Shown: in pieces, positions 3 through 43,761 of the stretch
Layout of the letters: each line of letters begins with the position of its first letter
Numbering within the stretch: the stretch's first letter is position 1
From: a virus
Strand: one strand, 5' to 3'
Virus record (IMG/VR): IMGVR_UViG_3300021087_000801
Coordinates: 1-45,011 of that record
DNA: 45,011 bases
The notes under the pieces: model-generated
Database searches by the model: none
Seen by the model: the letters and a program-made list of their open reading frames with translations, nothing else
Told to the model about the DNA's origin: nothing
Position numbers and translations under genes: made by a program

Positions 3-566
3 ATTGGACCAGGAAGCGTGTGTACAACACGAATCCAAACAGGAGTTGGGTATCCGCAACTTAGTGCAGTCATTGAATGTGCAGATGCGGCACATGGACT
101 TGGTGGACATATTATTGCTGATGGGGGCTGTAACTCTAGTGGTGATGTGGCTAAAGCATTTGCTGGCGGTGCCGATTATGTAATGCTAGGCGGTATGCTT
201 GCAGGACACGATCAAGGTGGCGGCGAAGTTATTAGTAAGATGTATGCAACTAATGAATGGCTCACAGCAGAAAAACCTTTACTTGAACAAAAACAGTTTG
301 TGGCTTTTTACGGAATGAGTAGTGATGCAGCAAATACAAAACACTTTGGAGGACTAAAAGACTATCGTGCAAGCGAAGGACGAGAAGTACTAGTTCCATA
401 CAGAGGTGCAGTACAGCACACCATACAAGCAATCTTAGGTGGGTTGCGTAGTACTTGTACATATGCAGGTGCAATGAAATTAAAACAATTGAGCAAGTGT
501 ACAACATTCGTTCGTGTTAATAATCAATTTAATCGTACATACGAAAGTACAACAACAAAAATTTAA
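3..566 (+). CDS. guaC: GMP reductase, C-terminal part (5' end outside window)
   Basis: This is the C-terminal half of a GMP reductase, which converts GMP to IMP with NADPH in purine salvage. The visible part opens with the catalytic-cysteine loop (GPGSVCTTR), followed by the [11 protein letters not shown] segment, the phosphate-binding DGGC and [14 protein letters not shown] stretches, and the flap region YGMSS. The C-terminal [13 protein letters not shown] and TTFVRV strings are closer to GuaC than to IMP dehydrogenase, and no CBS domains are seen. The gene runs in from the left edge, so its start is unseen. It ends just before a pair of late promoters. A phage GMP reductase would shift guanine nucleotides towards the IMP and adenine pools during infection; that role is inferred. 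Confidence 0.93.
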
Positions 567-4695: not shown

Positions 4696-5106
4696 ATGGC
4701 ATATAGCGAAAAAGTGCTAGACCATTACAATAATCCAAGAAATGTAGGTAAATTTGACCCCAATGAAGAGAATATCGGAACTGGTATGGTAGGTGCACCT
4801 GCATGTGGAGATGTAATGCGTTTACAAATAAAAGTAGATGACAATGGCATCATAGAAGATGCAAAGTTTAAAACATATGGTTGTGGAAGTGCAATTGCTA
4901 GTTCAAGTATGGTAACAACTATGCTTAAAGGTATGACACTAGACGAAGCACAAGAAATTAAAAATACAACAATTGTTGAAGAACTAGCATTACCACCAGT
5001 AAAAATTCACTGTAGCGTATTGGCAGAAGATGCCATTAAAGCCGCAGTAAGAGATTACGGCGATAAAAAACAAAAAATAAACGCAAAACCGGTTGACATA
5101 ACTTAG
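4696..5106 (+). CDS. iscU: Iron-sulphur cluster scaffold protein IscU (136 aa)
   Basis: This is the scaffold on which IscS assembles [2Fe-2S] clusters before transfer to apoproteins. All ligands are present at the E. coli positions: Cys37 and Asp39 (PACGDVM), Cys63 (YGCGSAIASSS), His105 and Cys106 (IHCSVLAEDAI). The chaperone-recognition motif LPPVK is at 99-103. It is close to bacterial IscU along its length apart from a short C-terminal extension. No IscS, IscA, HscA or HscB gene is seen nearby, so it would rely on host sulphur donors. Three radical SAM proteins elsewhere in the window each need a [4Fe-4S] cluster, an obvious (inferred) reason for a phage to carry it. Its 3' end contains the -35 box of the tmRNA promoter. 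Confidence 0.95.
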   Translation: MAYSEKVLDHYNNPRNVGKFDPNEENIGTGMVGAPACGDVMRLQIKVDDNGIIEDAKFKTYGCGSAIASSSMVTTMLKGMTLDEAQEIKNTTIVEELALPPVKIHCSVLAEDAIKAAVRDYGDKKQKINAKPVDIT

Positions 5107-5125
5107 TTTTGTGTTATCATAAATA
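5093..5125 (+). promoter_or_regulatory. Combined sigma70 and late promoter for tmRNA
   Basis: TTGACA (5093-5098) and TATCAT (5115-5120) are 16 bases apart, and a late octamer CATAAATA (5118-5125) overlaps the -10 box. Both would initiate within a few bases of each other near 5127-5131, just before the acceptor piece of the tmRNA. Confidence 0.65.
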
Positions 5126-5127
5126 AC

Positions 5128-5440
5128 ATGTAACGTTGAAACTTGACTCAACGCATTTCAGGACCTCGGGGCAGTACCGAGCAGCTCCACCATAAACACA
5201 TCTAGATGAGATATTGAATCACTGCTTGGGTGTGCTTATGATGGGGCTGAAACAGGTTCGACTGGAAGGTTAGTAGGTAAGCGGAGTTATCGGGATCTAA
5301 GCACCGTTATCGCGAAGAAAATTTATAATTGCAAACGCAAATTATGAGCCAGAAATGGCATTAGCGGCTTAGTTTTAAGCACGTAGGGGTTTTGTAAGTT
5401 GAGCCTGGCAACAGAATCAACTTACAACTAGATTATAATT
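5128..5440 (+). ncRNA. ssrA: Circularly permuted two-piece tmRNA, tag ANANYEPEMALAA
   Basis: This RNA rescues stalled ribosomes by acting first as tRNA-Ala and then as mRNA for a degradation tag. The gene order is permuted. The acceptor piece comes first, with T-arm CTCGG/CCGAG (5165-5181), acceptor strand CAGCTCC (5182-5188) and encoded ACCA (5189-5192). The coding piece starts GGGGCTG at 5243. GGGGCTG pairs with CAGCTCC over 7 bp and includes the G3-U70 wobble recognised by alanyl-tRNA synthetase. The P2 helix is also seen: CTGGAA (5262-5267) with TTTCAG (5156-5161), extended by GTTAGT with ACT-C-AAC. The intervening segment (5193-5242) closes with CATAAACACA/TGTGCTTATG. The tag frame is 5331-5372, ANANYEPEMALAA then TAG. 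An 11-bp hairpin (about 5392-5427) ends the coding piece. The mature outer ends are estimates. Permuted tmRNA is characteristic of alphaproteobacteria. Confidence 0.93.
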
Positions 5441-5480
5441 AATATATTTTAGTATAAAAATAAAAATAATAGGAAAAACT

Positions 5481-8728: not shown

Positions 8729-9556
8729 ATGCAATTTGATTTTAAAGTAGAGCAAGTCGCAGAACTATTGCCACGTGTTAATGGCCTTTTATGGCATGAT
8801 GCAATGCAGAGAGTTTTGCCCAAATGGAATATCAATACTGTTGAAAGAGTTGCAGGGTTTATAGCCCAAACGGCTCACGAATCAGGTGGATATACCGTTC
8901 TAACTGAGAATCTAAATTACAGTGCCGAAGCACTGGATAAGATTTTTCCAAAGTATTTTAAACGAGCAGGGCGAAATGCAAAAGATTATCATAGGCAACC
9001 TGAGAAGATTGCAAATGTAATTTATGCAGGTCGTATGGATAATGGTGATACAGATAGTGGAGATGGTTGGCGCTTTCGAGGTGGCGGTATTCTTCAGTTA
9101 ACTGGTCGCTATAATTATACACAATTTGGTAAAGCAGAAGATATGAGTGCAGAAGAGGCCACAGAGTTTGTTCGCAGTCCTATTGGAGCGTTAGCAAGTG
9201 CATGCTGGTTTTGGAATACAAATAACATTAATAAGTACTGTGATGCCCAAGATATTGTTGGGATGACAAAACGTATTAATGGGGGAACTATTGGACTAGA
9301 AGATCGCAAAAAACATTACGCACATGCGTTAGAAGTGTTAGGTGGACATTATACTCCACGTGAAACTTATGAAACTGTGCGTGTTGGATCTCGAGGTTCA
9401 ACAGTTGCAAAATTACAAGAAGCACTAGGAATTGGTGCAGACGGTATTTTTGGTAAAGGTACAGAAGCATCACTTAAAGAGTGGCAAAGCTCAAAAGGCC
9501 TAGTTGCTGACGGTGTTGCTGGTCCTAACACATTAGGAATCTTATTTAAAGAGTAA
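8729..9556 (+). CDS. Endolysin: GH19 muramidase/chitinase-like with peptidoglycan-binding domain (275 aa)
   Basis: Cleaves cell-wall glycan at lysis. Residues 1-195 form a glycoside hydrolase family 19 domain, with the catalytic Glu51 in QTAHESGGY, a probable second acid Glu60 (TENLNYS), and the conserved GRGILQLTGRYNY-type loop, here FRGGGILQLTGRYNY. Residues about 205-275 are a PG_binding_1 repeat (VRVGSRGSTVAKLQEALG ... DGIFGKGTEASLKEWQ). It has no signal peptide, so it needs a holin, and a small two-helix protein lies directly upstream. The stop shares a base with the start of the radical SAM gene. Confidence 0.93.
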   Translation: MQFDFKVEQVAELLPRVNGLLWHDAMQRVLPKWNINTVERVAGFIAQTAHESGGYTVLTENLNYSAEALDKIFPKYFKRAGRNAKDYHRQPEKIANVIYAGRMDNGDTDSGDGWRFRGGGILQLTGRYNYTQFGKAEDMSAEEATEFVRSPIGALASACWFWNTNNINKYCDAQDIVGMTKRINGGTIGLEDRKKHYAHALEVLGGHYTPRETYETVRVGSRGSTVAKLQEALGIGADGIFGKGTEASLKEWQSSKGLVADGVAGPNTLGILFKE

Positions 9557-10791
9557 TGGAAAAGAACACTACGCCTATTAATAAACATAGTGATACATGG
9601 TGTCCAATTCCATTTAATGCTATTAGCTTTCATCCTACAGGAAGATTAACTCGTTGCATGATGAGTGAAACTGCAATGGGTGAAAGCTATGATAGTGAAG
9701 AATTACAAGCCTTACGTCAAGATATGCTTGACGGCAAGTGGGATAAAGAAGGTTGTGAAACTTGTTACAAGAAAGAACAACATGGAAATATTAGCCAAAG
9801 ACAGAAATGGCTATTAAAAGATCCAAATAAATTTAAAAACCAAGACGGATATAACAATCCACAAGTAACAGGTAATCCTGTAAATCACATGTTCATTAAT
9901 TACAGTAATATCTGTAATTTTAAATGCAGAATGTGTAGTCCTTTATACAGTAACGGTCTTATACCAGAATTTAAGCGTCTAGCATCATTAAATATAGTTC
10001 CTAACAAATATGATCAAAATCCTGGTGTTAAGAATATAAATTCTACCAACAGTTATTTAAAAAACAATCCAAGTAAATTAGATAGTGTAACAAGTATCTG
10101 GATTACAGGCGGAGAGCCGTTTATGGATAATAGTGTTTATGACCTCATGGATATATTAGATGAAAATGATAGATCACGAGAAGTAGACATGTGTGTTACT
10201 ACAAATGGTTCAAAGGTTGATCTTAATAAATTACAAAGATGTGAAACATTAGATAATTTTATACTTGATTTAAGTCTTGATGCTCCTAATCATATGTTTG
10301 AATATATGCGTAGTGCAGGTGCATTTACTTGGACTGAAATGGAAAGATTATTAGACGAGTTAAAATATTTTAGAGAGTTAAATAGTAGTTGGTTTAAATT
10401 GCATTTAAATTCTAGCATACAAGCATATAACTTTGATACTATATTAGATTTTGATAAATTATGTAACGAACACAACACTAGTAACAATTCAAGACAACTA
10501 GTAAACCCAAGAGAATTTAGAACTGATGTATTACCAATGGAAATGCGACAGGCAGAAGTAGAAAAATTAGAAAAATACAATGTGAATAATGATGTAAATT
10601 CTGCAAGATTAAAAAGAACATTAGAAGATGCACGTTTAAATTTATTAAAGCCACAGGCAGATATAGAACAGATTAAAAAGTTTGTAAGAAGAACAGTAGA
10701 AACAGACAAGTATAGAAATATGCATTTGTATGATTATCATAAAGAATTAGGTGACTGGGTTTATAGCACTTATAACAAATACTTTTCTTGA
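9556..10791 (+). CDS. Radical SAM protein with N-terminal SPASM/twitch-like domain (411 aa)
   Basis: The radical SAM cluster motif CxxxCxxC is at Cys120-Cys124-Cys127 (NICNFKCRMC), followed by ITGGEPF, the SAM-contacting GGEP motif. The N-terminus carries four cysteines (Cys16, 34, 67, 70: WCPIPF, TRCMM, CETC), resembling the auxiliary-cluster half-domain seen in phage 'twitch' radical SAM proteins, here placed before the catalytic core. Its substrate is unknown; related enzymes modify peptides. It is one of three such genes in the window, and all share this layout. It is coupled to the endolysin by overlap. The C-terminal 150 residues are helical and charged. Confidence 0.88.
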   Translation: MEKNTTPINKHSDTWCPIPFNAISFHPTGRLTRCMMSETAMGESYDSEELQALRQDMLDGKWDKEGCETCYKKEQHGNISQRQKWLLKDPNKFKNQDGYNNPQVTGNPVNHMFINYSNICNFKCRMCSPLYSNGLIPEFKRLASLNIVPNKYDQNPGVKNINSTNSYLKNNPSKLDSVTSIWITGGEPFMDNSVYDLMDILDENDRSREVDMCVTTNGSKVDLNKLQRCETLDNFILDLSLDAPNHMFEYMRSAGAFTWTEMERLLDELKYFRELNSSWFKLHLNSSIQAYNFDTILDFDKLCNEHNTSNNSRQLVNPREFRTDVLPMEMRQAEVEKLEKYNVNNDVNSARLKRTLEDARLNLLKPQADIEQIKKFVRRTVETDKYRNMHLYDYHKELGDWVYSTYNKYFS

Positions 10792-13119: not shown

Positions 13120-13650
13120 ATGGATCAAAATTATATTTTAAACAACCTAAGAGCAAACACTAGTAGAGATAGTGCATTAGAAACACTAATGGACTTTGAA
13201 CGTGTAATGGATACTGCTAACATTTATGCATACAAAAACTGGATGGAAGGCGAAATTGTCGAAGGTCCACATATTGATAGATATTGGGTAACAGTAACAT
13301 TAATGTATCATCAAGCACAAATGCCAGATCCAGAAGGTGCAATGCGTTTAACAAAAAATGGTTGTAAAGTATATTTTGCAGAAGAAGAATACATTACGGC
13401 AGCTAAATTAAAAAGTCCAGACGACAGTGAAGGACAAGACAATGCGGACGGTAAAAGACCAGGTCAATCACGTGCTAAAAGAGTTATTAAGCCTGTTTGG
13501 CTAGTAACAATAGTAATGCCTAGAAAATACATGGACGATGTAGAGTCTAGCAAATTACGTGTAGATGACCAAGACATAAACAGCGGTGCAGTAGAACAAG
13601 CATACACAGATGAAATATCAGCAGACAAAGAACCAGGATTAGACTTATGA
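13120..13650 (+). CDS. Unknown conserved-looking phage protein (176 aa)
   Basis: First gene of a long unit that continues into the IF-1, spanin, J-protein and ClpA genes. The N-terminal half is helical (SRDSALETLMDFERVMDTAN). The middle is a beta region (GPHIDRYWVTVTLMYHQAQ). A charged linker (SPDDSEGQDNADGKRPGQSR) is followed by a second beta segment (KPVWLVTIVMPRKYMDD) and an acidic tail. It has no recognised domain. It overlaps the next gene by four bases. Confidence 0.72.
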   Translation: MDQNYILNNLRANTSRDSALETLMDFERVMDTANIYAYKNWMEGEIVEGPHIDRYWVTVTLMYHQAQMPDPEGAMRLTKNGCKVYFAEEEYITAAKLKSPDDSEGQDNADGKRPGQSRAKRVIKPVWLVTIVMPRKYMDDVESSKLRVDDQDINSGAVEQAYTDEISADKEPGLDL

Positions 13651-15189: not shown

Positions 15190-15221
15190 AAACACTAGCG
15201 TTTAAGGCTCTTCGTTATGTC

Positions 15222-15229
15222 AATAAATA
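15222..15229 (+). promoter_or_regulatory. Late promoter AATAAATA, 5 bases before ATG
   Basis: AATAAATA-CTACG-ATG. The late start would coincide with the A of the ATG at 15235, as at four other genes here. It overlaps an alternative upstream ATG, which would then be outside the late transcript. Confidence 0.6.
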
Positions 15230-15234
15230 CTACG

Positions 15235-15906
15235 ATGAAGAAGTTTAAAAACCCTTGGTTTATTCTTGGCCTAGAACCAGGTGCTACTTTAAAAGAGGTC
15301 AAACTAGCATATAAAAGATTAGCTCTTAAAAATCATCCTGATAAGGGCGGTACTATTGCTGACTGGCTTTCTATAAGTGATGCATATGAATCTATAACAG
15401 AAAAGAAACATATACCTATAGTAAAGTCAACAGATACACAAATGATAGATTTGCCACTTACTATTGAACAACAGATTAATGGAGTTAACGATTATGTTGA
15501 AATTGACGATTTATACTTAAAAGTAAATATTCCACCCGGTGTTTTAGCAGGTGATAAGTTTAAAATAACTGATAAGCGAAAAAAATATATAATAAATGTG
15601 AAAGAAAAGGCAAATAAAGTCTTTACAAGATCAGGAAATAATATTATAATGTATAAGACTTTAGACGTTATTGATGTAATGAAACTGAATTCGTTTATGA
15701 TTATTACACCAACAGGAGAACGAGCTGAAATACAAATACCACCAGATACAGTAACAGGTAGTATTATTGTATTAAAGGGACACGGTCTTTTGAATAGAAA
15801 GAGTAAAAGAAAGGGAAATTTAAGGATACATATTAAGGTATCCATACCATACTTAAATAGTACTAACATGGAAGAATTTATAACGAGGTTAAGGACAAAT
15901 GACTGA
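15235..15906 (+). CDS. J-domain co-chaperone, DnaJ-like without zinc finger (223 aa)
   Basis: Residues about 5-60 form a J domain with the HPD tripeptide (LKNHPDKGG) that stimulates Hsp70 ATPase. The rest resembles the DnaJ C-terminal substrate-binding domain (VNIPPGVLAGDKFKIT; TVTGSIIVLKGHGLLN; GNLRIHIKVSIPYLN). The Gly/Phe linker and zinc-finger repeats are absent, as in CbpA-type J proteins, but here it is even shorter. I prefer the ATG placed five bases after a late octamer; a start 18 bases upstream is the alternative. It overlaps the ClpA-like gene by eight bases, so J protein and unfoldase would be made together and could cooperate with host DnaK. Confidence 0.85.
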   Translation: MKKFKNPWFILGLEPGATLKEVKLAYKRLALKNHPDKGGTIADWLSISDAYESITEKKHIPIVKSTDTQMIDLPLTIEQQINGVNDYVEIDDLYLKVNIPPGVLAGDKFKITDKRKKYIINVKEKANKVFTRSGNNIIMYKTLDVIDVMKLNSFMIITPTGERAEIQIPPDTVTGSIIVLKGHGLLNRKSKRKGNLRIHIKVSIPYLNSTNMEEFITRLRTND

Positions 15907-18151
15907 TATAGAAAAAATTGTAATCACTGCTATTAATTTAGCAAAAAAATTAAAACACGAATATGTAACAATAGAACATATTGCGGCAGTTCTCTTAGAT
16001 GATCCACATATTCAAGCAATGTGTTACGAAGTAAATGCAGACTTTGAACAATTACAAATTGCACTAGTAGAATACTTAGAAAAAGAATGTGCAGAATTAG
16101 TTAAAAATGGAACTGAAGAACCTAATCCATATAAAACACAAATGTTAGAACGTGTGTTTAACAGAGCATTAACACAAGCATTATTTCAAGGTAAAAAACA
16201 TCTTAACCAATTAGATCTAGTATTAAGTATACTAGGTGAAGAAAACAGTATAGCAGCTCAATACTCTGAACAATTAGGACTTAATAAAAACAAAGTTATT
16301 AAATGGATGCAAGACGCAAATCAGCAAGAGCATGAACAAATATTTGGACCTGCTGATGGATTGAATGATCCACGCCGAGCAACTGGAATGACACCAAGAG
16401 ATGTATTGGCACAGTTTTGTACTAACATGAACGAGGCATATGATGAATATGATGACTTAATTGGACGTAGAAGTGAATTAAAAGATTTAGTACAAACAGT
16501 AGCACGTAAGAAAAAGTCTAATGCTATTTTAACAGGTGGCAGTGGTGTTGGTAAAACAGCAGTTGTACAAGGACTAGCAAAACTTATTGTAGAAGGACAT
16601 GTTCCTGATATTATTAAAGACAAAGTTGTATGGGAATTAGATATGACTAAGTTAGTAGCTGGTACAAAGTATAGAGGTGATTTTGAAGAACGCATGAAAC
16701 AGTTAGGCGAAGCATTAATACAAGAACCTAACATTATTTTATTTGTAGATGAGATACATACAATCATTGGTGCAGGTAGTACAAATGGTACTATGGATGC
16801 AGGTAACATGTTAAAGCCAGCGTTAAGCAATGGTAAACTAAAAGTAATTGGTGCTACAACAGATGAAGAATATAGAAAAGTATTTGAAAAAGAAACAGCA
16901 CTAGCACGTAGATTTACAAAAGTTGTAGTAGATGAACCTAATACAAAAGACGCAAAAGAAGTTGTATACAATTCTTTAGTATCATATGAAGCATTTCACG
17001 ATGTTACTATTAGACCAGAAGCAGCAGATCTTTCAGTTGAATTAAGTAATCAATATATCTTTAACAAAAAACTTCCAGATAAAGCATTTGATATTATTGA
17101 CAGAGCATGTGCATTTAATAGAATATTACCACCAGAAGAACGATTAGACATATTAGGTGAAGATGAAATTAAAGCAGAGGTGGCAAGATTAACTGGTATT
17201 CCAAAAGAACATTTAGGAAAAACAGATGATAAAGAAACTGCAAACAAGCACAGTGAAGTAAGAGAATTTTTAGAAAGTACTGTATTTGGTCAACAAGTGG
17301 CAATTGATTGCGTAGTTGATAGTATTACAGTTAGCATGGCAGGTCTTAAAGATCCTATTAAACCTATTGCAAGTTATTTGCTTACAGGACCAACTGGTGT
17401 TGGTAAAACAGAACTTGCTAAACGTTTAGCACAATCAATGAGTATGAAACTATGTAGATACGATATGGCAGAATATCAAGAACGTCATACAGTGTCAAAA
17501 CTAATTGGTTCACCTCCAGGTTATGTAGGACACGCAGATGGTAAAGCAGGAGATGGATTACTTATTAATCAATTAGAAGATAATCCAAATTGTGTACTGT
17601 TACTTGACGAAGTAGAAAAAGCACACCCAGATTTAATGAGTGTATTGTTAAGTTTATTAGACGAAGGTACAATTACAAGTAGCACAGGTAAAGTAGTAAG
17701 TGCCAAGAACGCTATTATTATTATGACAAGTAACCTTGGAGCCAGAGATGCTGCAATTAAGAGCATTGGCTTTAATGAAGAAACATATAATGCAAAAGCA
17801 GTAGATGACGCAGTAAACAATTATTTTGCACCAGAGTTCCGTAACAGACTAGACGGTGTTGTTAAGTTTAATTCTTTAACAAGAAACGACATGAAGCGTA
17901 TTGTTATTAAGTTCTTAGGTGAACTTGAAACATATGTAGAAGGTAGACATATTGTAATTAATTGGGGTCCTGAACTAGTAGCAATGCTAGAAGATAAAGG
18001 ATACGATCCGGCAATGGGTGCAAGACCGTTAGCAAGACTAATCAATGAAACTGTAAAACTTCCGTTAGCAAAATATTTACTTGATAATAACAAAGATTAT
18101 ACATTGGACATTGATTGGAAAAAAGATAAGTTAACAATTAATGCAAAATAA
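15899..18151 (+). CDS. clpA: ClpA-like AAA+ unfoldase with ClpP-docking loop (750 aa)
   Basis: A complete ClpA-type protein, close in length to E. coli ClpA. It has a Clp N-domain (about 1-145) and a first AAA+ module with Walker A GGSGVGKT (213-220) and Walker B FVDEIHT (about 283). A second module has Walker A GPTGVGKT (about 497-504) and Walker B LLLDEVEKAHPD. There is no ClpB-type middle coiled coil. The tripeptide IGF (623-625, in IKSIGFNEE) sits where ClpA has its IGL loop for docking on ClpP, so it should feed substrates into host ClpP. The substrate-threading loop of D1 (AGTKYRGDFEERM) is intact. With the tmRNA tag ending ALAA, this suggests a phage-run tagged-protein degradation route. 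No clpP or clpS is seen. Confidence 0.92.
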   Translation: MTDIEKIVITAINLAKKLKHEYVTIEHIAAVLLDDPHIQAMCYEVNADFEQLQIALVEYLEKECAELVKNGTEEPNPYKTQMLERVFNRALTQALFQGKKHLNQLDLVLSILGEENSIAAQYSEQLGLNKNKVIKWMQDANQQEHEQIFGPADGLNDPRRATGMTPRDVLAQFCTNMNEAYDEYDDLIGRRSELKDLVQTVARKKKSNAILTGGSGVGKTAVVQGLAKLIVEGHVPDIIKDKVVWELDMTKLVAGTKYRGDFEERMKQLGEALIQEPNIILFVDEIHTIIGAGSTNGTMDAGNMLKPALSNGKLKVIGATTDEEYRKVFEKETALARRFTKVVVDEPNTKDAKEVVYNSLVSYEAFHDVTIRPEAADLSVELSNQYIFNKKLPDKAFDIIDRACAFNRILPPEERLDILGEDEIKAEVARLTGIPKEHLGKTDDKETANKHSEVREFLESTVFGQQVAIDCVVDSITVSMAGLKDPIKPIASYLLTGPTGVGKTELAKRLAQSMSMKLCRYDMAEYQERHTVSKLIGSPPGYVGHADGKAGDGLLINQLEDNPNCVLLLDEVEKAHPDLMSVLLSLLDEGTITSSTGKVVSAKNAIIIMTSNLGARDAAIKSIGFNEETYNAKAVDDAVNNYFAPEFRNRLDGVVKFNSLTRNDMKRIVIKFLGELETYVEGRHIVINWGPELVAMLEDKGYDPAMGARPLARLINETVKLPLAKYLLDNNKDYTLDIDWKKDKLTINAK

Positions 18152-28806: not shown

Positions 28807-29315
28807 TGAAAGCAAATGAATTTATAAAATTATTAAAAGAAGAATATGATATAGGTCAAGATGAATTCCAAGAAGCATATTCTGATGAGATAGTTACAGT
28901 GGTAACCAATGTCTGGAAAAGAAAATACCCAGATGTTGAATTACATAACCCAGAAGATGAGTTTGGGGCTGGCCATACATTTGAAACAAAAACACCGTCA
29001 CCTGAAAAGGGTGGGTTTACATTAAGTTTTGGTTCTCAATTATATCACACCGAAGATGTACATGAATCACCTGAGAACCTGTTTTATATAGTTGTCTCAA
29101 ATGCGTATTCAGGCAACTTCAAAGGTGTTGTACTAGACATGTTAGAGAGTGTATATAAACTTATGGAAAGCAAACTACAAGAGTATGCACCTGGATCTAA
29201 TAGATCTGAATTTAAAAGAATGATTGGCATTCATCATAATAGAAATCTAGAAGCATGGTCACATATTGCAACAAAACTAGGTGCAGTTGAAGAACCAAGG
29301 GGACGCGACGAATGA
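28806..29315 (+). CDS. Tagged unknown protein (169 aa)
   Basis: The N-terminus MKANEFIKLLKEEYD resembles the T4 IPIII-type targeting helix. The remainder is acidic and mixed alpha/beta (GGFTLSFGSQLYHTEDVHES; NLFYIVVSNAYSGNFKG), with a helical C-terminal region. It overlaps the next gene by four bases. No domain is recognised. Confidence 0.65.
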   Translation: MKANEFIKLLKEEYDIGQDEFQEAYSDEIVTVVTNVWKRKYPDVELHNPEDEFGAGHTFETKTPSPEKGGFTLSFGSQLYHTEDVHESPENLFYIVVSNAYSGNFKGVVLDMLESVYKLMESKLQEYAPGSNRSEFKRMIGIHHNRNLEAWSHIATKLGAVEEPRGRDE

Positions 29316-29536
29316 AAATGGACGACATATACAAATTAAAATATCTAGCAGGTATAACTGATAAACAAGGAAATACACTAGGTGAGAAAGCACCAGAAGG
29401 AAGTAATATTAGTATTACTGGATCTGAAAAAGCACGAATTCAACGTGAAAAGAAAATACAGCCCGGAACAGATGCATGGTTTAAACTTTGGTTTGCCAAG
29501 CCTAGGTTAACAGGCGAAAAACCAACAGGAAAATAA
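29312..29536 (+). CDS. Tagged small basic phage protein (74 aa)
   Basis: Starts MKMDDIYKLKYLAGI, combining the tag with an 'LAGI' motif also seen (as LSGI) inside the 401-residue protein later in the block. The C-terminal GSEKARIQREKKIQPGTDAW then FKLWFAKPRLTGEKP resembles a module I recall from other marine T4-like phages. It overlaps the preceding gene by ATGA. Confidence 0.68.
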   Translation: MKMDDIYKLKYLAGITDKQGNTLGEKAPEGSNISITGSEKARIQREKKIQPGTDAWFKLWFAKPRLTGEKPTGK

Positions 29537-29537
29537 C

Positions 29538-29900
29538 ATGGGAACAGAATTAATTATATTGTTTGCTTTAATGTGCAAACACGCAGTAGCCGATCTAGCC
29601 GTACAGTCATTTAGAGTACCATCTAAAAAGAGGCTTTGGTTAAACAAAGGATTACATTTACATGCAATGGATCATGCAGTATTAACATTTTTAGTATTGT
29701 TATTCTGGGTTAATCCTTGGTTAGCATTGGGTTATGCACTAATTGATTATGTTGCACACTGGCACATAGACTGGGCTAAATCAAATATATTATGGATATT
29801 TGGAATATCCAGAGAAGGCAAGGGGTTTTGGCGTCTACAGACAGTAGACCAAATACTACATTATGCTACATATATGTTTATAGTATCATTAATGGTGTAA
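29538..29900 (+). CDS. DUF3307-like membrane protein (120 aa)
   Basis: Polytopic, with about four hydrophobic segments (LIILFALMCKHAVADLAVQ; HAVLTFLVLLFWVNPWLALG; ILHYATYMFIVSLMV). Conserved His/Asp pairs (CKHAVADLAVQ, YVAHWHIDWAK, TVDQILHY) match the DUF3307 pattern found in phages and bacteria. The function of that family is unknown. It sits between two tagged genes and lacks the tag itself. Confidence 0.72.
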   Translation: MGTELIILFALMCKHAVADLAVQSFRVPSKKRLWLNKGLHLHAMDHAVLTFLVLLFWVNPWLALGYALIDYVAHWHIDWAKSNILWIFGISREGKGFWRLQTVDQILHYATYMFIVSLMV

Positions 29901-30385: not shown

Positions 30386-33300
30386 ATGAGAATAACTGAA
30401 GTAGACAAAGGTTTAACACAAAGTGAACTGGATCAATTAGAAGTTTTTGCAGATAGATTATTTGCGAAAGTAGGTATTGATGTAGAGTTTACCCGTCACT
30501 TCTTAGATCGTGTAAATGACGAACGCAATGTAAAACAAATCACAGCAAGCGAACTCACGAGATTATTTAAACAAGAATACAAACGTTGGGGCAAACCTAT
30601 TGCACAAATGGGCCCAGACGCAGAAGCAGTACTAAAAGACTTAGCAACAGACGTAAACATACCATTTGCTTTACGTTGGGATAAAGAAAACAACGAATTA
30701 GATCTTATCGCTAAAACAGTAATGCGTAAGAAAAATTTTAAAACATCTAACAAAGAGTTTGAAATACAATCAGCTGATTACTCGTTAGATAATATACAAC
30801 ACAAAAAAGTATTTGAATCAATAAAACAACTTAACGAAGCAGGCCCGGCAGCATTGGCAGTACCAGTTGGTATTGCGGCATGGAATGCCTATGTATATTC
30901 CAGATATGCTCAAGCAGCCTGGTTTACCGCAAAATTTACTGCAACAACAGCCGCAGCATATATTGTTGCTAATAAATCTGATTTTGGCTGGCTTGAACGA
31001 AAGATGGCTTCATCGGCTATTCTTGCATATCAACTATGGGACAAAGTTAGAGGCGTACAAGATATGAGCAGTGTTCAGTGGAGAGACACTAATGCATCAG
31101 CAATGGCAGCCGGACAACAAGGAGCTGAAAATCCATTAGGTCCTAGGCCAACTGCAGATATGAACGGTGATCCATATGGTATTATAAATGCTAGACAACA
31201 AGTAGCCGCAGGACAGTTAGGTGCACAAGCACGTTTAGATTTAGCGTTAGCAGATTTGGCTGCTGATCAAAAAGCATGGGATATTGAATCTAATAAAAAT
31301 CAAGACAAGGACGCAAGCAACGGCGCAATGGCATCAGGTCAAACAGGTGCTACTTTAACACAATTAACATTAGATGCTAGTGAACAATTAAATGGAGAGC
31401 TAGCCGCAGGTGTAAATGAATTAACTGCAAATGCAAATATAGAAACTGAAATAGATAACGAAGAATTAGATAAAATAGCAATAGCAACTGCTGATGCTCA
31501 AAATTTAGTAAGTGATAATAATCTTATAAAACTAGCAACTACAATAACACAAGCAAAACAAAACGATGATAGTGATGCACAACTTATTTCATTAGCAACT
31601 AACATTGCAACAGCCCAACAGGCAGCAGACAAAGTAACTGCACAAAATACAGCCAGTGATGCTAAACTAATTGCACTTGGACAACAAGTAGCACAACAAC
31701 AAGCAGATAAGTTAGCAACAGAATTAAGTGATGCAAAATTAATTGCACTTGGACAACAAGTAGCACAACAACAGTCAGATGCTAGAGCAACAGAATTAAG
31801 TGATGCAAAATTAATTGCACTTGGACAACAAGTAGCACAACAAAAAGCAAATGCGGCTGCAAATGCAGTCAGTGATGCTAAACTAATTGCACTTGGACAA
31901 CAAGTAGCACAACAACAAGCAGATGCTAAAGCAACTGCACAAAATACAGCCAGTGATGCTAAACTAATTGCACTTGGACAACAAGTAGCACAACAAAAAA
32001 TAGATACACAGAATGCAACCAGTGATGCTAAACTAATTGCACTTGGACAACAAGTAGCACAACAACAAGCAGATGCTAAAGCAACTGCACAAAATACAGC
32101 CAGTGATGCTAAACTAATTGCACTTGGACAAGCATATGCAGATGCTAAATCAGATGCTAAAGCAACTGCACAAAACCAGGCAAGTGATGCCAAACTAATT
32201 GCGTTAGCAAAAGCAGTAAGTGATGTAAATGATGTTGAACTTAATGTTCCAGCAGATGATGGCATAGGAAAAGACATAGATATTACAATACCAGACACAG
32301 GCACTATTACAAGACCTGATGCACTTGATTTACCAGGTGCAGGAACAACAACTGGTGGCATAGATACAACTGGTGCTACAGCACAAGGAAATGCAGCGGC
32401 GGCGGCAGCGGCGGCACTAGCAACGGCAAAAGAAAAAGCAATTGCAACTGCTAAAGCAAATACTAAAAATAATAACACCGGTAAAAAGAAAACTAAGAAA
32501 TTTGATTGGGGATTCGGAGATGGTGATTATTGGGATACAGATCTATATAGATGGCAACAAAAATATGGAACATTTGAAAATCAAAACCTAATTAAAAAAT
32601 ATTTTATGATTAATGAAGGTGGAGCAATGCCAGGCGTTGGTGCTATTCATATTGATGAGATTACTCCAACATTACAAGCATTAGAAAAGTCAATAGGTGT
32701 TGACTTAATGAACAACACATTGGGTAGTGTAGGTAAAAGACAATTCAGTGGAGACATTGATGTAGCACTACAAATACAACCAGAAGAATTACCAGCATTT
32801 ATAGAAGAACTTAAAAAGAATCCACTAGTACTAGACATTGCTAAAAGCAGTGTTATTATGACAAAAGTTAAAATTATGGACTTTGATCAATCTAAGTCAG
32901 ACGGGAGACCTCGTACAGGATTTGTACAAGTAGACTTTATGCCAGGCGACCCAGGTTGGATGAAAACTTATTATCACTCACCAAGTGAAACAGAATCAAA
33001 ATACAAAGGCGTATATCGTAACATTATGATTGCTACATTGGCAGCAGTACACAACAGAGATCAAAGTGATGCTAAATTAGATGACGGTAGAGCTATGGAA
33101 GAAAGACGCTTTATGTGGAGTCCAACTGAAGGATTGTTGCGTGTACAACGTACACCTGTTCCTAAGAAAAGTGGCGAAGGTTACACTAAAAAGAATAAAA
33201 ATGAAACAATAGACGGTCCTTGGAAACAACCAGATGAGATTGCAACACAACTAGGTCTAGACAGTGGAAAAGATTTAAACAGTTTTGAATCATTACTAGC

Positions 33301-33415
33301 CGCAGTTAAAAAGAATTGGACCAAAGAAAAATTACAATATGTTATAGATGGATTCAAGCAAAACAATGTTGTACAAGACATTGGCGTGCCTGAGGAATTA
33401 GACGATGTTAATTAA
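30386..33415 (+). CDS. Large tagged protein with repeat array and pol-beta-type nucleotidyltransferase domain (1009 aa)
   Basis: Opens with MRITEVDKGLTQ (tag), then a folded domain of about 120 residues (VEFTRHFLDRVNDERN) that I recall from other T4-like marine phage proteins. A hydrophobic stretch lies at about 150-200. From about 425 to 612 the unit SDAKLIALGQ..AQQ recurs eight times. An Ala-rich linker and YWDTDLYRWQQKYGTF (about 715) follow, then an internal tag-like MINEGGAMPG. The C-terminal domain has the nucleotidyltransferase motif GS(780-781)-x8-D790-I-D792 (LGSVGKRQFSGDIDVAL). The layout looks like the 23862 and 25197 products joined in one chain. A packaged, possibly ejected, enzyme is inferred. 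Confidence 0.75.
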   Translation: MRITEVDKGLTQSELDQLEVFADRLFAKVGIDVEFTRHFLDRVNDERNVKQITASELTRLFKQEYKRWGKPIAQMGPDAEAVLKDLATDVNIPFALRWDKENNELDLIAKTVMRKKNFKTSNKEFEIQSADYSLDNIQHKKVFESIKQLNEAGPAALAVPVGIAAWNAYVYSRYAQAAWFTAKFTATTAAAYIVANKSDFGWLERKMASSAILAYQLWDKVRGVQDMSSVQWRDTNASAMAAGQQGAENPLGPRPTADMNGDPYGIINARQQVAAGQLGAQARLDLALADLAADQKAWDIESNKNQDKDASNGAMASGQTGATLTQLTLDASEQLNGELAAGVNELTANANIETEIDNEELDKIAIATADAQNLVSDNNLIKLATTITQAKQNDDSDAQLISLATNIATAQQAADKVTAQNTASDAKLIALGQQVAQQQADKLATELSDAKLIALGQQVAQQQSDARATELSDAKLIALGQQVAQQKANAAANAVSDAKLIALGQQVAQQQADAKATAQNTASDAKLIALGQQVAQQKIDTQNATSDAKLIALGQQVAQQQADAKATAQNTASDAKLIALGQAYADAKSDAKATAQNQASDAKLIALAKAVSDVNDVELNVPADDGIGKDIDITIPDTGTITRPDALDLPGAGTTTGGIDTTGATAQGNAAAAAAAALATAKEKAIATAKANTKNNNTGKKKTKKFDWGFGDGDYWDTDLYRWQQKYGTFENQNLIKKYFMINEGGAMPGVGAIHIDEITPTLQALEKSIGVDLMNNTLGSVGKRQFSGDIDVALQIQPEELPAFIEELKKNPLVLDIAKSSVIMTKVKIMDFDQSKSDGRPRTGFVQVDFMPGDPGWMKTYYHSPSETESKYKGVYRNIMIATLAAVHNRDQSDAKLDDGRAMEERRFMWSPTEGLLRVQRTPVPKKSGEGYTKKNKNETIDGPWKQPDEIATQLGLDSGKDLNSFESLLAAVKKNWTKEKLQYVIDGFKQNNVVQDIGVPEELDDVN
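31655..32223 (+). repeat. In-frame repeat array, units of about 69-81 bp
   Basis: Eight copies of a unit with the near-invariant core AAACTAATTGCACTTGGA, spaced 69-81 bp apart. They encode SDAKLIALGQQVAQQ plus a variable 8-12-residue linker. Adjacent units are almost identical at DNA level, implying recent expansion. The predicted structure is a long Ala/Gln helix or coiled coil. Confidence 0.9.
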
Positions 33416-34186: not shown

Positions 34187-35365
34187 ATGACAGACAAATA
34201 TTGCGTATATACAAACAATTTTACATTCGTTGACAATGACGGATATGTAGCATTGTGTTGTAAAAATCTAAAGAACAAACTTTCACAATATCATATCAAA
34301 GACTACAAATTAAGTGAAATTTGGAACAGTCCAGAAATGCATAGTGTTAGGGCAGAAATTGCCTCAGGTGGAGAACCCAATGGTTGTTTTAAATGCTATG
34401 ATCCTGAAAGAGATGGAGTGCGTAGTTTCAGACAAAAAGCACTAGGCATGATTAACAATGGTGTTCCATTTCAAGATGAAAAAATACACGCACTTGATCT
34501 TAGATTAGGTAATGTGTGTAATTTATCTTGTGTAATGTGTTTTGCTGGTAACAGTAATAAAATATTACATCAACACAAATCAATGGCAAAGCATTTTAAT
34601 TGGAAAGAAGGTCGCTTAGAAAAAGAAGCAGAAAAATATCACAAAAGCAATTACGATTGGAGTGATGATCCACAAGCATGGGATAATATTATTTCAAGTG
34701 TAGATAAGAATTTAAAACATGTATACTTAGCAGGCGGTGAGCCTTTTTATCTTAAAAACTTTCCTACTACAGTAGAACGATTAGGCAGTTTGGCTCCGGG
34801 TGCTAATTTTGTTATTAATACAAATGGCACAAGACTACTAAGAGAAAAAGACTTAAAACAATTAAAAACAGTAGAAAATGTATTCCTAAGATTTAGTGTA
34901 GATGGTTGGGGTGCCGCTGATGAGTGGACTAGGCAAGATACAGTATGGGAAGAAAAACTACAAGTAATGGATCAATACTATAATCATTTTAAATTAGCTG
35001 TATGGGATATTACTGCTAACAGTTTAAGTGTAAGACACATACCTAAACTTATTACACATTTATGGAATAATTATCCAAATGCAAAAGTACAAATACGACC
35101 AGTTGTTAATAAGACAGAAGTACTGATGGAAAACATTCCTGATAGATTTAAAAAAGAAAGTTTAGCATTTTTTGAAAAACATAAAAATAAACTAGAAGGT
35201 GTTGATCATGTTATAAATGAAATGCGTAAACCATTTAACAACGATATGAAACGTAAACACACAGTAAGACATTTTGTAAACTATTACGATACGCATGGTG
35301 TAGTTACATTAGAAAGTTTTGATCCTGAACTAGCAGAATGGATTAATAGTGATGCAGAAGAATAG
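34187..35365 (+). CDS. Radical SAM protein with N-terminal SPASM/twitch-like domain (392 aa)
   Basis: The catalytic cluster motif CNLSCVMC lies at Cys111-Cys115-Cys118, followed by the SAM motif LAGGEPF and INTNGTRL. N-terminal Cys6, 24, 25, 67 and 70 (YCVYTN, ALCCKN, CFKCYD) would hold an auxiliary cluster. The SEIWNSPEMHSVR segment is typical of phage twitch radical SAM proteins. The substrate is unknown. It overlaps the next radical SAM gene, so the two are made together and could act on one substrate or as a heterodimer. An AGAGGAA box precedes the ATG. Confidence 0.9.
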   Translation: MTDKYCVYTNNFTFVDNDGYVALCCKNLKNKLSQYHIKDYKLSEIWNSPEMHSVRAEIASGGEPNGCFKCYDPERDGVRSFRQKALGMINNGVPFQDEKIHALDLRLGNVCNLSCVMCFAGNSNKILHQHKSMAKHFNWKEGRLEKEAEKYHKSNYDWSDDPQAWDNIISSVDKNLKHVYLAGGEPFYLKNFPTTVERLGSLAPGANFVINTNGTRLLREKDLKQLKTVENVFLRFSVDGWGAADEWTRQDTVWEEKLQVMDQYYNHFKLAVWDITANSLSVRHIPKLITHLWNNYPNAKVQIRPVVNKTEVLMENIPDRFKKESLAFFEKHKNKLEGVDHVINEMRKPFNNDMKRKHTVRHFVNYYDTHGVVTLESFDPELAEWINSDAEE

Positions 35366-36569
35366 TTTTTGTACAATTCCTTGGATACATGCCGCTACTA
35401 AAACAAATGGATCTAGCAGAGTATGTTGTTTAATGAGTAATAGCTCTGGCGGAGAAACAGGGCATAACTTTAAACAACACAGTGTAGAAGAAATTCACAA
35501 TAGCGAGTTTTCACGTAAAATACGTAAGCAATTTTTAGCAGGCGAGAAACCAACAGAGTGTAATACATGTTGGGTTAAAGAAGATAATGGTGGTTACAGT
35601 AGGCGTACATTTACAAATAAGATTTATAAACACTTTGACTACGATAAAGCAGTACAAGTAACAAAATCAGATGGTAGCACAACACAGATGCCAGTATATT
35701 GGGATTTAAGGTTTGGTAACTTATGCAATTTAAAATGTGTAATGTGCGGACCTCAAAGTAGTAGTATGTGGTACAAAGACTGGGCGAAAGTTCACTCCAC
35801 TGATCATTTTTACGACAGCGGTACAAAAATTGACATTTCGGACGGAAACAAACAAAATAGGAAAGATCGTGAATCGGATTATGATTGGTGGGAAAGTGAA
35901 CACTTTTGGGAACAGTTAGATAAGCACAAGGAACAACTACAACATGTTTACTTAGTAGGTGGTGAGCCTATGTTAGTAGAGCCTCATTACAAATTTTTGC
36001 AAAAGCTAATAGACAGTGATATAAGTAAAAATGTAGTGTTAGAGTACGATACGAATATCACAAATGTACATCAACGTGCAATTGATCAATGGAAGCATTT
36101 TAAAAAACTAATGCTTAGATGTAGTATAGATGATTTTGGTGAGCAAAATGATTATATACGTTTTCCTAGTAAATGGTATAAACTAAATGAAAATATAGAA
36201 CAAATTAATGCATTACTACCTGATACAGAAATAGAAATAAGTATCACATGGCAAATGCTTAATGCATTTACAGTATTAAACTTATTAGATCATTTTAAAC
36301 AGTATCATATTAATATAAGAATATTATCTATTCCTGATCATTTAGATGCAAAGCATTTACCAAAGCAGGCAAAATTAGATATTATAAATATGTATACTAA
36401 TTCAGTACATAAAGATAAGCTATCCCATTTAATAAACTATCTGAACAATACGTTAGATTATGATAGCAATCCATATGATTGTATAGTTTTCTTAGAAAAA
36501 TTAGATGAAATACGAGGTACAGACTGGAAAAAAACGTTTATTGAATTACATAAATCGATAAATACTTAA
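35352..36569 (+). CDS. Radical SAM protein with N-terminal SPASM/twitch-like domain (405 aa)
   Basis: The cluster motif is Cys125-Cys129-Cys132 (LCNLKCVMC), then VGGEPM and a SAM-binding strand. N-terminal FCTIPWIH, RVCCLM and ECNTCW repeat the layout of the two other radical SAM proteins here. I prefer the ATG one codon after a GTG; either gives a start inside the upstream gene. It is more like its neighbour than the protein at 9556, by eye. Role unknown. Its 3' end carries the late promoter of the next tagged gene. Confidence 0.9.
   Translation: MQKNSFCTIPWIHAATKTNGSSRVCCLMSNSSGGETGHNFKQHSVEEIHNSEFSRKIRKQFLAGEKPTECNTCWVKEDNGGYSRRTFTNKIYKHFDYDKAVQVTKSDGSTTQMPVYWDLRFGNLCNLKCVMCGPQSSSMWYKDWAKVHSTDHFYDSGTKIDISDGNKQNRKDRESDYDWWESEHFWEQLDKHKEQLQHVYLVGGEPMLVEPHYKFLQKLIDSDISKNVVLEYDTNITNVHQRAIDQWKHFKKLMLRCSIDDFGEQNDYIRFPSKWYKLNENIEQINALLPDTEIEISITWQMLNAFTVLNLLDHFKQYHINIRILSIPDHLDAKHLPKQAKLDIINMYTNSVHKDKLSHLINYLNNTLDYDSNPYDCIVFLEKLDEIRGTDWKKTFIELHKSINT
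36557..36564 (+). promoter_or_regulatory. Late promoter GATAAATA
   Basis: Overlaps the 3' end of the radical SAM gene and lies 20 bases before a tagged gene that has an AGAGG box. Confidence 0.68.
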
Positions 36570-42556: not shown

Positions 42557-43761
42557 TGGGTATATTAAGCAATATCGTAAATGAAGACAAGGTAGAGATG
42601 TGCCCAGAAGCATGTTGTGGAAAGCCTATAACAGAATGTAAATGTGGACCAGATTGCGAACACTGTGATTGTCATTCTAAGAACAAAGCAATGAATGAAG
42701 GCACACAAGGTTGTGCAGATTGTGAATGGATTAAAGACGAAACAGACGGCGACATTGATACATGTGATGAGTGTGCGGCAGAAAAGCGTCAAACTAATGA
42801 ATCAGAAAAGCGTTGGAAACAAACTAGTATGTCTCCAGAAGAAGCAATTGAAAAATACGGCAAAGAAAACGTAAAAGTTAAAAAAGGTGCATTGCGTAAT
42901 GGCGATGACATGGTAGAAGTATTTGTTGAATCAATGAATGAAGAAATTGATGATGAAGCAGTAAAAAAAGCAATTATGTCAAGCGGTAAAGAACCACAGG
43001 ATGCATTATATGATTTAATGGGTGTAGATGGACCGTTAGGCGACTACGTAAGAAGATCATATGAAATTACAGGAGGCGAGAATGGCCTACACGGTGATGA
43101 TGACCATGAAGAAATATTTGATAGAATGGTATATGACCTAGGATTAGATGAAGAATACTACGAATCAGAAATAAGCAGATTAAGAGAACTATCTGGTATT
43201 ACAGAAGCTCCAGGAAAGGGATCTTTCTCTTTTGGTCCAAAAGATCCTCAGAATATGTCCCCTAAAGATATTACAGACCCAAATGCTGCATTAATTCATA
43301 AAGGTTCAACAAGAGGTGTAGATGATCCTTTTGATGCAAGCGGAACAGGACATGCAGATGGTATTGGCTGGAGTCAAGATGAATTAGACGGTGCAATGCA
43401 AGGATTTAAAGATGTATTAGGCACTGAAAACCAAATAAAAATTAACAGATACTTAGCTAAATTACCTCTTACTATTGCAAAAGATATTGCCGACCGGAAT
43501 GGATATGGCACATACACAAATCCAGAGACTGGTGCAAGAGAAAATCCAGATTCAATGATTGGCGGTTATGATCATGTTGGTAATCCTAACTATGGCACAG
43601 ATGCTATGGATGACGAAACTATTGCTAAAATTAAAGATCCTAATTGGAGAGATACTTTCGACATGCAAGATCCTAAATTTAAAAACATCAGACCTACAGA
43701 AGCAACCAATGAAGAAATTGAAGCTGAAATAAAAAGACTACAAGATCTAATTAAGTATTAA
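42556..43761 (+). CDS. Tagged acidic protein with Cys-rich cassette (401 aa)
   Basis: MGILSNIVNED is the tag (V-N-E at 8-10). Directly after it comes the same eight-cysteine cassette as in the 349-residue protein, then a second Cys group (GCADCEW, DTCDECAAE). An acidic middle (MSPEEAIEKYGKENVKVKKG) is followed by ISRLRELSGITEAPGKG, an 'LSGI' module, and a Pro/Asp/Asn-rich C-terminal half without recognised fold. The first base overlaps the previous stop. The Cys groups suggest metal binding. Confidence 0.7.
   Translation: MGILSNIVNEDKVEMCPEACCGKPITECKCGPDCEHCDCHSKNKAMNEGTQGCADCEWIKDETDGDIDTCDECAAEKRQTNESEKRWKQTSMSPEEAIEKYGKENVKVKKGALRNGDDMVEVFVESMNEEIDDEAVKKAIMSSGKEPQDALYDLMGVDGPLGDYVRRSYEITGGENGLHGDDDHEEIFDRMVYDLGLDEEYYESEISRLRELSGITEAPGKGSFSFGPKDPQNMSPKDITDPNAALIHKGSTRGVDDPFDASGTGHADGIGWSQDELDGAMQGFKDVLGTENQIKINRYLAKLPLTIAKDIADRNGYGTYTNPETGARENPDSMIGGYDHVGNPNYGTDAMDDETIAKIKDPNWRDTFDMQDPKFKNIRPTEATNEEIEAEIKRLQDLIKY
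42597..42698 (+). repeat. Cys-rich cassette, copy 2
   Basis: Nearly identical to 40939-41040; the two copies differ at a handful of mostly silent positions. Confidence 0.85.

Follow-up and report, generated by a model that had tools for sequence, protein, structure and literature searches.

Does the permuted tmRNA gene carried by this virus record work for the phage, or is it a copy recently taken from a bacterial host, and what would become of the proteins that it tags? The window analysed here is the whole record (45,011 bases). It encodes phage protein families, including those of DNA ligase, PhoH and endolysin as well as a match to a tail fibre, in agreement with the first-pass annotation, which had placed the gene on a virus.

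The tmRNA gene and its conservation

The gene is a circularly permuted tmRNA gene of the two-piece type, located at 5130-5426 on the + strand, as confirmed by two Rfam models, ARAGORN and our reading of the sequence. RF04321 (tmRNA_permuted; gathering threshold 47) matches 5130-5372 with 107.4 bits (E 4e-20) over model positions 1-213 of 213, RF01849 (alpha_tmRNA; gathering threshold 50) matches 5072-5426 with 105.3 bits (E 7.3e-28) over model positions 1-355 of 355, and both matches span the full tRNA-like domain above the gathering threshold; ARAGORN independently reports a permuted tmRNA at 5100-5463 with the tag ANANYEPEMALAA. The first-pass annotation, which had described a phage-borne circularly permuted tmRNA with a tag and proposed Infernal with alpha_tmRNA as a check, was right on this point, and its landmarks (the CCA end at 5192 and the start of GGGGCTG at 5243) are exact to the base.

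The acceptor 3' piece is encoded ahead of the coding piece, and all parts lie on the + strand. The acceptor piece of the pre-tmRNA (5128-5192, with a putative 5' end), delimited by sequence, Rfam match and the pairing seen in relatives, contains the P2 5' strand GTAAC (5130-5134), the T arm (5165-5181, with T stem CTCGG at 5165-5169 and CCGAG at 5177-5181) and the acceptor 3' strand CAGCTCC (5182-5188), followed by A5189 and CCA (5190-5192). A spacer of 50 bases (5193-5242) is expected to be excised, judging from sequence, fold and the alignment of relatives; in the precursor fold its ends pair with each other, prolonging the acceptor stem into a spacer hairpin. The coding piece (5243-5426; sequence, Rfam match and fold) holds the acceptor 5' strand GGGGCTG (5243-5249), which pairs with the 3' strand with a G-U wobble at the third pair, a D-loop-like part, the P2 3' strand GTTAT (5286-5290, the partner of GTAAC), an mRNA-like part and a 3' hairpin (about 5394-5426; sequence, Rfam match and fold). 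The tag reading frame ANANYEPEMALAA with its stop TAG (5331-5372; ARAGORN and sequence) ends in ALAA-TAG, and ARAGORN finds its resume codon, -AA end and stop.

The 299-base precursor folds at -93.3 kcal/mol vs -74.0 (sd 4.4) kcal/mol for shuffles (z -4.36; 0 out of 200 as low). Relatives were collected by pattern scans of viral contigs, to which ARAGORN was then applied: the first scan gave 75 loci, with a permuted tmRNA called in 31 and a standard tmRNA in one (L073), and both scans together gave at least 188 loci, at least 96 of them called as permuted tmRNA by ARAGORN, to which the window is added. Because the search patterns prescribe acceptor pairs 1-4 and CCA, these were left out of the conservation count, which uses 78 of 81 rows (two SAR11 rows and the misparsed L050 set aside). 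For these 78 distinct phage genes among the matches listed, acceptor pairs 5-7 are paired in 234 out of 234 cells, compared with a mean of 172 and a best of 193 in 1000 shuffles. Six pair sets occur: GCG/CGC (31), CTG/CAG (26), GTG/CAC (nine), TCG/CGA (five), TTG/CAA (four) and CCG/CGG (three). These pairs would hold together two RNAs separated by processing. For the T stem, 386 out of 390 cells are paired in the same 78 genes among the matches listed (best shuffle 301), and all four unpaired cells belong to a single locus, L124. The tag frame with its AA end is kept in 95 of the 97 phage permuted genes among the matches listed, with varying inner letters. Given the pairing kept in its relatives, the window tmRNA looks functional.

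A gene identical to that of the window is found in two viral loci (L051 and L075), and the next-nearest row in the tree described below has 94% identity to it; a BLAST search of 50,697 phage records with the gene gave no match at E 0.001. Most phage tags have 9-14 aa, and very long ones (predicted 22-31 aa) are found in loci L108, L113, L117, L118 and L127.

Promoter motifs and origin

Directly upstream of the tmRNA gene lies iscU (4696-5106, + strand; TIGR01999 at 222.9 bits, cut-off 192.4; phrog_8429), and the 3' end of iscU contains a -35 element, TTGACA (5093-5098, + strand). A -10 element, TATCAT (5115-5120, + strand), follows 16 bases past it and is overlapped by a late-type box, CATAAATA (5118-5125, + strand), which we take to resemble a T4-type late promoter; transcription would start near 5127-5130. 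These motifs (5093-5125) are an addition to the coordinates of the first-pass annotation. A sigma-70-type pair (at most two mismatches) is found just upstream of 64 out of 86 phage permuted tmRNA loci among the matches listed vs four out of 58 bacterial permuted tmRNA genes, and a late-like box upstream of 64 out of 86 vs one out of 58; letter shuffles of the upstream stretches give 2% for the pair and 6% for the box. The count is a fixed-distance test, which bacterial promoters farther upstream would escape. Judged from these motifs, the putative layout of overlapping sigma-70-type and late-type elements is common in phage and rare in bacterial tmRNA genes. A pure late promoter was considered and rejected, because most relatives also have the -35 element. 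In six isolates other than Melnitz, inspection by eye of the upstream stretch did not reveal a late-type box; among them, the Mesorhizobium phage has a sigma-70-like pair alone upstream of its tmRNA (by eye).

Across the window, 14 out of 23 occurrences of the wider motif NATAAATA are intergenic, compared with 70 out of 583 when 20 same-letter controls are counted; the + strand carries 21 of these 23 sites (and 55 of the 61 predicted genes). By itself, TATAAATA shows no enrichment here (two vs 8.1 expected). All six TTGACA-15..18-TATNA(T/A) sites in the window are at gene ends or intergenic (by eye, from the ORF list). Among the 13 + strand intergenic late-like sites examined, a perfect -35 element accompanies only those at 5118 and 13089; the latter is a further site where TTGACA and CATAAATA form an overlapping promoter-like arrangement, immediately ahead of an ORF at 13120.

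The first-pass annotation also proposed that the phage had acquired the gene from an alphaproteobacterial host. The alphaproteobacterial model RF01849 does fit, and that part of the proposal stands; the comparison with sampled hosts such as SAR11 goes against it in tag, bits and tree. RF01849 matches five out of eight SAR11 genomes searched with 225-232 bits, and the tag is ANESYALAA in all five vs ANANYEPEMALAA in the window, so that the tag comparison proposed earlier turned out negative. More widely, RF01849 is over its cut-off in 105 out of 115 sampled alphaproteobacterial genomes (best matches 143-313 bits, with one second copy at 72.8), and the window tag matches none of 70 ARAGORN-called bacterial permuted genes. 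In a tree of 139 rows (88 phage and 51 bacterial), 50 out of 51 bacterial rows fall into a single cluster (100/98); the window sits inside a phage-only lineage, beside L348. A first tree with fewer bacteria (29 rows) had every bacterial row in one cluster, and when seven isolates were added, 50 out of 51 bacterial rows again clustered, now with one phage row among them. Within this limited sampling, which leaves 16 bacterial rows aside, the window tmRNA does not nest among bacterial genes.

The trees are unrooted, with about 200 alignment columns and rough support values; identical cores were merged, and the rows set aside are 16 of the 70 bacterial permuted genes (without the expected end motifs), one phage gene and rows cut by contig ends, with 17 further bacterial loci, without an ARAGORN permuted call, also outside. 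Since the trees are short and rough, have no known root and dropped bacterial rows, an old origin from alphaproteobacteria is possible, and a recent acquisition from the sampled alphaproteobacterial groups is not supported. The tree points to permuted tmRNAs as a long-standing possession of phages, not something newly copied from hosts.

ClpA, ClpP and other genes of the phage lineage

The window also encodes a ClpA-type unfoldase of 750 aa (15899-18151, + strand), recognized by TIGR02639 and by its motifs. TIGR02639 is the best of all families for this protein, with 746.6 bits over residues 3-728 of 750 (its cut-off of 993 is not reached), and the protein has two Walker A motifs (GGSGVGKT and GPTGVGKT, by eye), a GYVG pore loop at residue 541 and an IGF loop at residue 623, which we take to be the ClpP-docking motif. 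Directly ahead of clpA is a gene for a DnaJ-like protein (15217-15906, + strand; TIGR02349 at 80.5 bits, below cut-off).

A ClpP gene is found in an 80 kb record, G017, which belongs to the phage species of the window (identity 99.97% across two compared stretches of 5,711 and 22,250 bases). ClpP (29214-29759; PF00574 at 264.9 bits over 2-181 of 182), tmRNA (43319-43561) and ClpA (54088-56337) follow one another in that order on the + strand of G017, within 27.2 kb, and the offset between the two records maps ClpP 8.4-9.0 kb before the first base of the window. The protein is full length, with the motifs GQACSMG, MIHQP and ERDNFM, presumably the catalytic Ser, His and Asp motifs. A homologue of it (L490) passes the cut-off of the NCBIfam ClpP subfamily (302 vs 249) and misses that of TIGR00493 (285 vs 309); the PHROG label for this ClpP is head maturation protease.

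How general is this association? Among 36 ClpA records, ClpP was sought in 31 (G012, G014, G028, G030 and G036 were left out) and found in 17, and 15 have all three genes. The order ClpP-tmRNA-ClpA on one strand is found in 11 of these 15, with the genes 12-16 kb and 9-16 kb apart (distances were computed for these 11 only); as the 11 records have a common ancestry, their synteny does not count as independent evidence. The remaining four depart from it: the genes are ordered differently in G029 and widely separated in G034, G039 and G040, which are very large records. A permuted tmRNA is found in 23 out of 36 ClpA records vs seven out of 39 IscU records (at least 20 kb, outside the ClpA set); it is found in 20 out of 25 ClpA records of at least 62% identity and in three out of 11 of the others. 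Among the former, four of the five misses extend no more than about 11 kb upstream of clpA; the fifth, G020, has 33 kb there and no tmRNA in it.

Starting from the tmRNA, the picture is different: only one out of 48 permuted-tmRNA records (G017) has a full ClpA (many of these records are short, but three of 116-153 kb also lack it), and a general tmRNA-ClpA partnership in phages is therefore rejected. ClpP was found in four out of 35 tmRNA records searched. Among the 39 IscU records (ClpP of at least 198 bits, tmRNA over cut-off), four have tmRNA and ClpP (G052, G061, G062 and G076), three tmRNA only, six ClpP only and 26 neither, a tally in which fragment length is a confounder; six out of the 10 IscU-set records with ClpP thus have no tmRNA over cut-off, and a general tmRNA-ClpP link is not borne out by these records. 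The Clp link holds for the lineage of the window, not for phage tmRNAs in general, and, as many tmRNA phages are without Clp and some Clp phages without tmRNA, phage Clp is not required by the tmRNA. Six records have a further ClpP-like match (93-113 bits), distinct from the first; G083 is one of them, and the match of G108 has a stop inside. SmpB was found in none of 24 phage records (the control was found in 10 out of 14 genomes), and the phage would therefore depend on host SmpB. Sinorhizobium phage Phosso was tried as an isolate with the three genes and rejected, as no tmRNA was found in the 100 kb covered, out of its 469 kb. A GOLLD RNA (L545:33533-34001, 186.6 bits) lies about 2.7 kb past clpP in Phosso, where the numbering of the listed features skips one.

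The phage lineage has T4-like features, and this T4-likeness is patchy, resting on one relative and the late-type boxes. Eight out of 23 records searched have a Gp23 capsid gene, among them the relative G016. Of the ClpA-lineage records, three are >180 kb (G011, G016 and G031), and the search found no such gene in G011 and G031; the window and G017, both fragments, gave none either. Other genes of the window include three for twitch-domain radical SAM proteins (9556-10791, 34187-35365 and 35349-36569; NF033640, all over cut-off) and one for a protein of 1009 aa with many copies of a SDAKLIALGQQVAQQ-like repeat (30386-33415). The 751-aa frame at 25197-27452 matches a tRNA nucleotidyltransferase (CCA-adding) family in its N-terminal part and then a 5'-3' deoxyribonucleotidase family; a CCA-adding enzyme encoded by a phage could repair the ends of tRNAs and of tmRNA.

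Proposed role and known systems

Taken together, we have good confidence that the gene, from a phage lineage with T4-like features, encodes a functional tmRNA of the permuted two-piece type that serves ribosome rescue, with the Clp part being weaker. Ribosome rescue is likely, and trans-translation with host SmpB is the most likely form of it; the phage ClpAP route is a lead, by which tagged products may be destroyed. The cutting, charging and rescue steps are taken from established tmRNA biology. Cleavage of the transcript at the acceptor ends would yield separate acceptor and coding pieces, joined by the acceptor stem and P2; the tmRNA would be charged with alanine (G-U at the third pair) and bound by host SmpB and EF-Tu, and ribosomes stalled on broken mRNAs would be freed by adding ANANYEPEMALAA. 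Tagged proteins would be degraded by Clp proteases, perhaps including phage ClpA docked on phage ClpP. The two overlapping boxes, one sigma-70-type and one late-type, would allow expression in both early and late infection, and in the late phase, with host mRNA and machinery failing, ribosomes would be kept free and amino acids recycled with little need of the host beyond SmpB. A more far-reaching version is that the phage has a quality-control route of its own, in which a diverged tmRNA from a long-standing phage-borne lineage with its own tags is expressed from the overlapping early/late promoter and its tag is read chiefly by phage ClpA-ClpP. We regard this version as rather unlikely; if true, stalled ribosomes would be freed and their products destroyed under phage, not host, control during infection.

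The strongest competitor concerns the Clp part only and is compatible with the rest: the tmRNA works, but phage ClpA and ClpP do other jobs, such as virion maturation or the removal of host regulators. We put this at slightly less than an even chance, considering that PHROG places this ClpP under head maturation protease, that ClpA or ClpP occurs without tmRNA in other phage records and that ClpA is absent from most tmRNA records searched, while the IGF loop retained in ClpA, the full-length catalytic form of ClpP and the gene order kept in 11 out of 15 three-gene records point the other way, and the second ClpP-like match (93-113 bits, six records) would suit head maturation better.

The two alternatives that deny the tmRNA a role in rescue fare worse. 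That the gene is a recent copy of a host ssrA, carried as an unadapted passenger after imprecise excision or transduction, is highly improbable, even though the alphaproteobacterial Rfam model fits and the authors of the Melnitz study, in the excerpts of their paper, favour an alphaproteobacterial source for theirs (PMC9004378): the window lies in a phage-only lineage with 50 out of 51 bacterial rows apart (100/98, with 16 bacterial genes outside the tree), its tag is unlike that of SAR11 and of all 70 ARAGORN-called bacterial permuted genes, and its promoter layout is its own and rare among bacteria. Slimmer still is the chance of a decoy, a phage tmRNA that soaks up host SmpB or alanyl-tRNA synthetase and so blocks host trans-translation. 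The tag-less tmRNA of mycobacteriophage DS6A is a precedent (excerpts of PMC11915505 and PMC4131195), and the finding of SmpB in 0 out of 24 phage records suits a decoy, but DS6A has no tag, whereas an AA-ended tag frame is kept in 95 out of 97 phage permuted genes among the matches listed. We therefore keep to ribosome rescue by a phage-encoded tmRNA.

The gene is thus a real, probably working tmRNA of a known kind in an unusually testable setting. The overlapping promoter layout and a phage species with its own ClpP and ClpA are new beyond the first-pass annotation. A phage with a tag-giving RNA, an unfoldase and a protease lets purified parts address the job of phage tmRNAs; it also raises the question of a phage protease reading the phage's own tag, and the common promoter layout leads to a testable forecast of when phage tmRNAs are used.

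Phage tmRNAs as such are documented in the excerpts of the papers cited here. In one survey (PMC9004378), 402 out of 18,146 phage genomes encode tmRNA; ARAGORN classes 53 of the 133 unique structures as two-piece, and 50 of these 53 come from marine or aquatic samples; the tmRNA database has 79 unique bacteriophage sequences (PMC11915505), and a list of phages with ssrA includes the tag-less DS6A (PMC4131195). Permuted tmRNAs of phages, i.e. Melnitz and other marine phages, are already in print (excerpts of PMC9004378), and the kind is known. We also found permuted tmRNAs (RF01849, 98-113 bits) in phages V10, DSS3P8, RcXuper, Cp1R7A-A1 and RcSimone-Hastad (L548, L549, L550, L551 and L552, respectively), whose records have no RNA feature annotated in the stretch viewed. 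As for Clp proteins, excerpts describe jumbo phages with ClpP, ClpS and ClpA (PMC7824862, where the word tmRNA is absent from the excerpt), ClpP of a freshwater phage (PMC5964084), and the jumbo phage AP-J-162 with one tmRNA and six Clp-like ORFs (PMC11242549); Atu_ph07 has 0 tmRNA in a table excerpted from the latter, though Clp genes are present. No paper linking phage tmRNA with phage ClpA or ClpP was found among open-licence PubMed Central papers, which is weak evidence of absence.

Among these systems, Sinorhizobium jumbo phage AP-J-162 is like the lineage of the window in having a tmRNA and Clp-like ORFs, but it is a 471.5 kb soil phage, and its authors draw no tmRNA-Clp link in the excerpted parts of PMC11242549. 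Sinorhizobium phage Phosso also has a DnaJ-like gene before its Clp ATPase gene, but with a peptide deformylase gene between, whereas the DnaJ-like gene of the window directly adjoins clpA. The ssrA gene of Methylophilales phage Melnitz (MZ577097) is likewise a permuted two-piece tmRNA gene of a phage and falls in the same Rfam class (106.7 bits with RF01849), and its promoter, TTGACA-17-TATAAATA, has the same layout as TTGACA-16-TATCAT with its overlapping box in the window; the two differ in the tag (ANDNYVPVDYALAA in Melnitz vs ANANYEPEMALAA) and in a glutamine riboswitch downstream of the Melnitz gene, of which there is none at the gathering threshold in the window. Finally, the alpha_tmRNA genes of Caulobacter and SAR11 share with the window gene the permuted order, the T arm, the acceptor and P2 helices and the tag frame, but the best matches in the sampled alphaproteobacterial genomes over the cut-off score 143-313 bits vs 105 bits for the window, and the tag and promoter differ.
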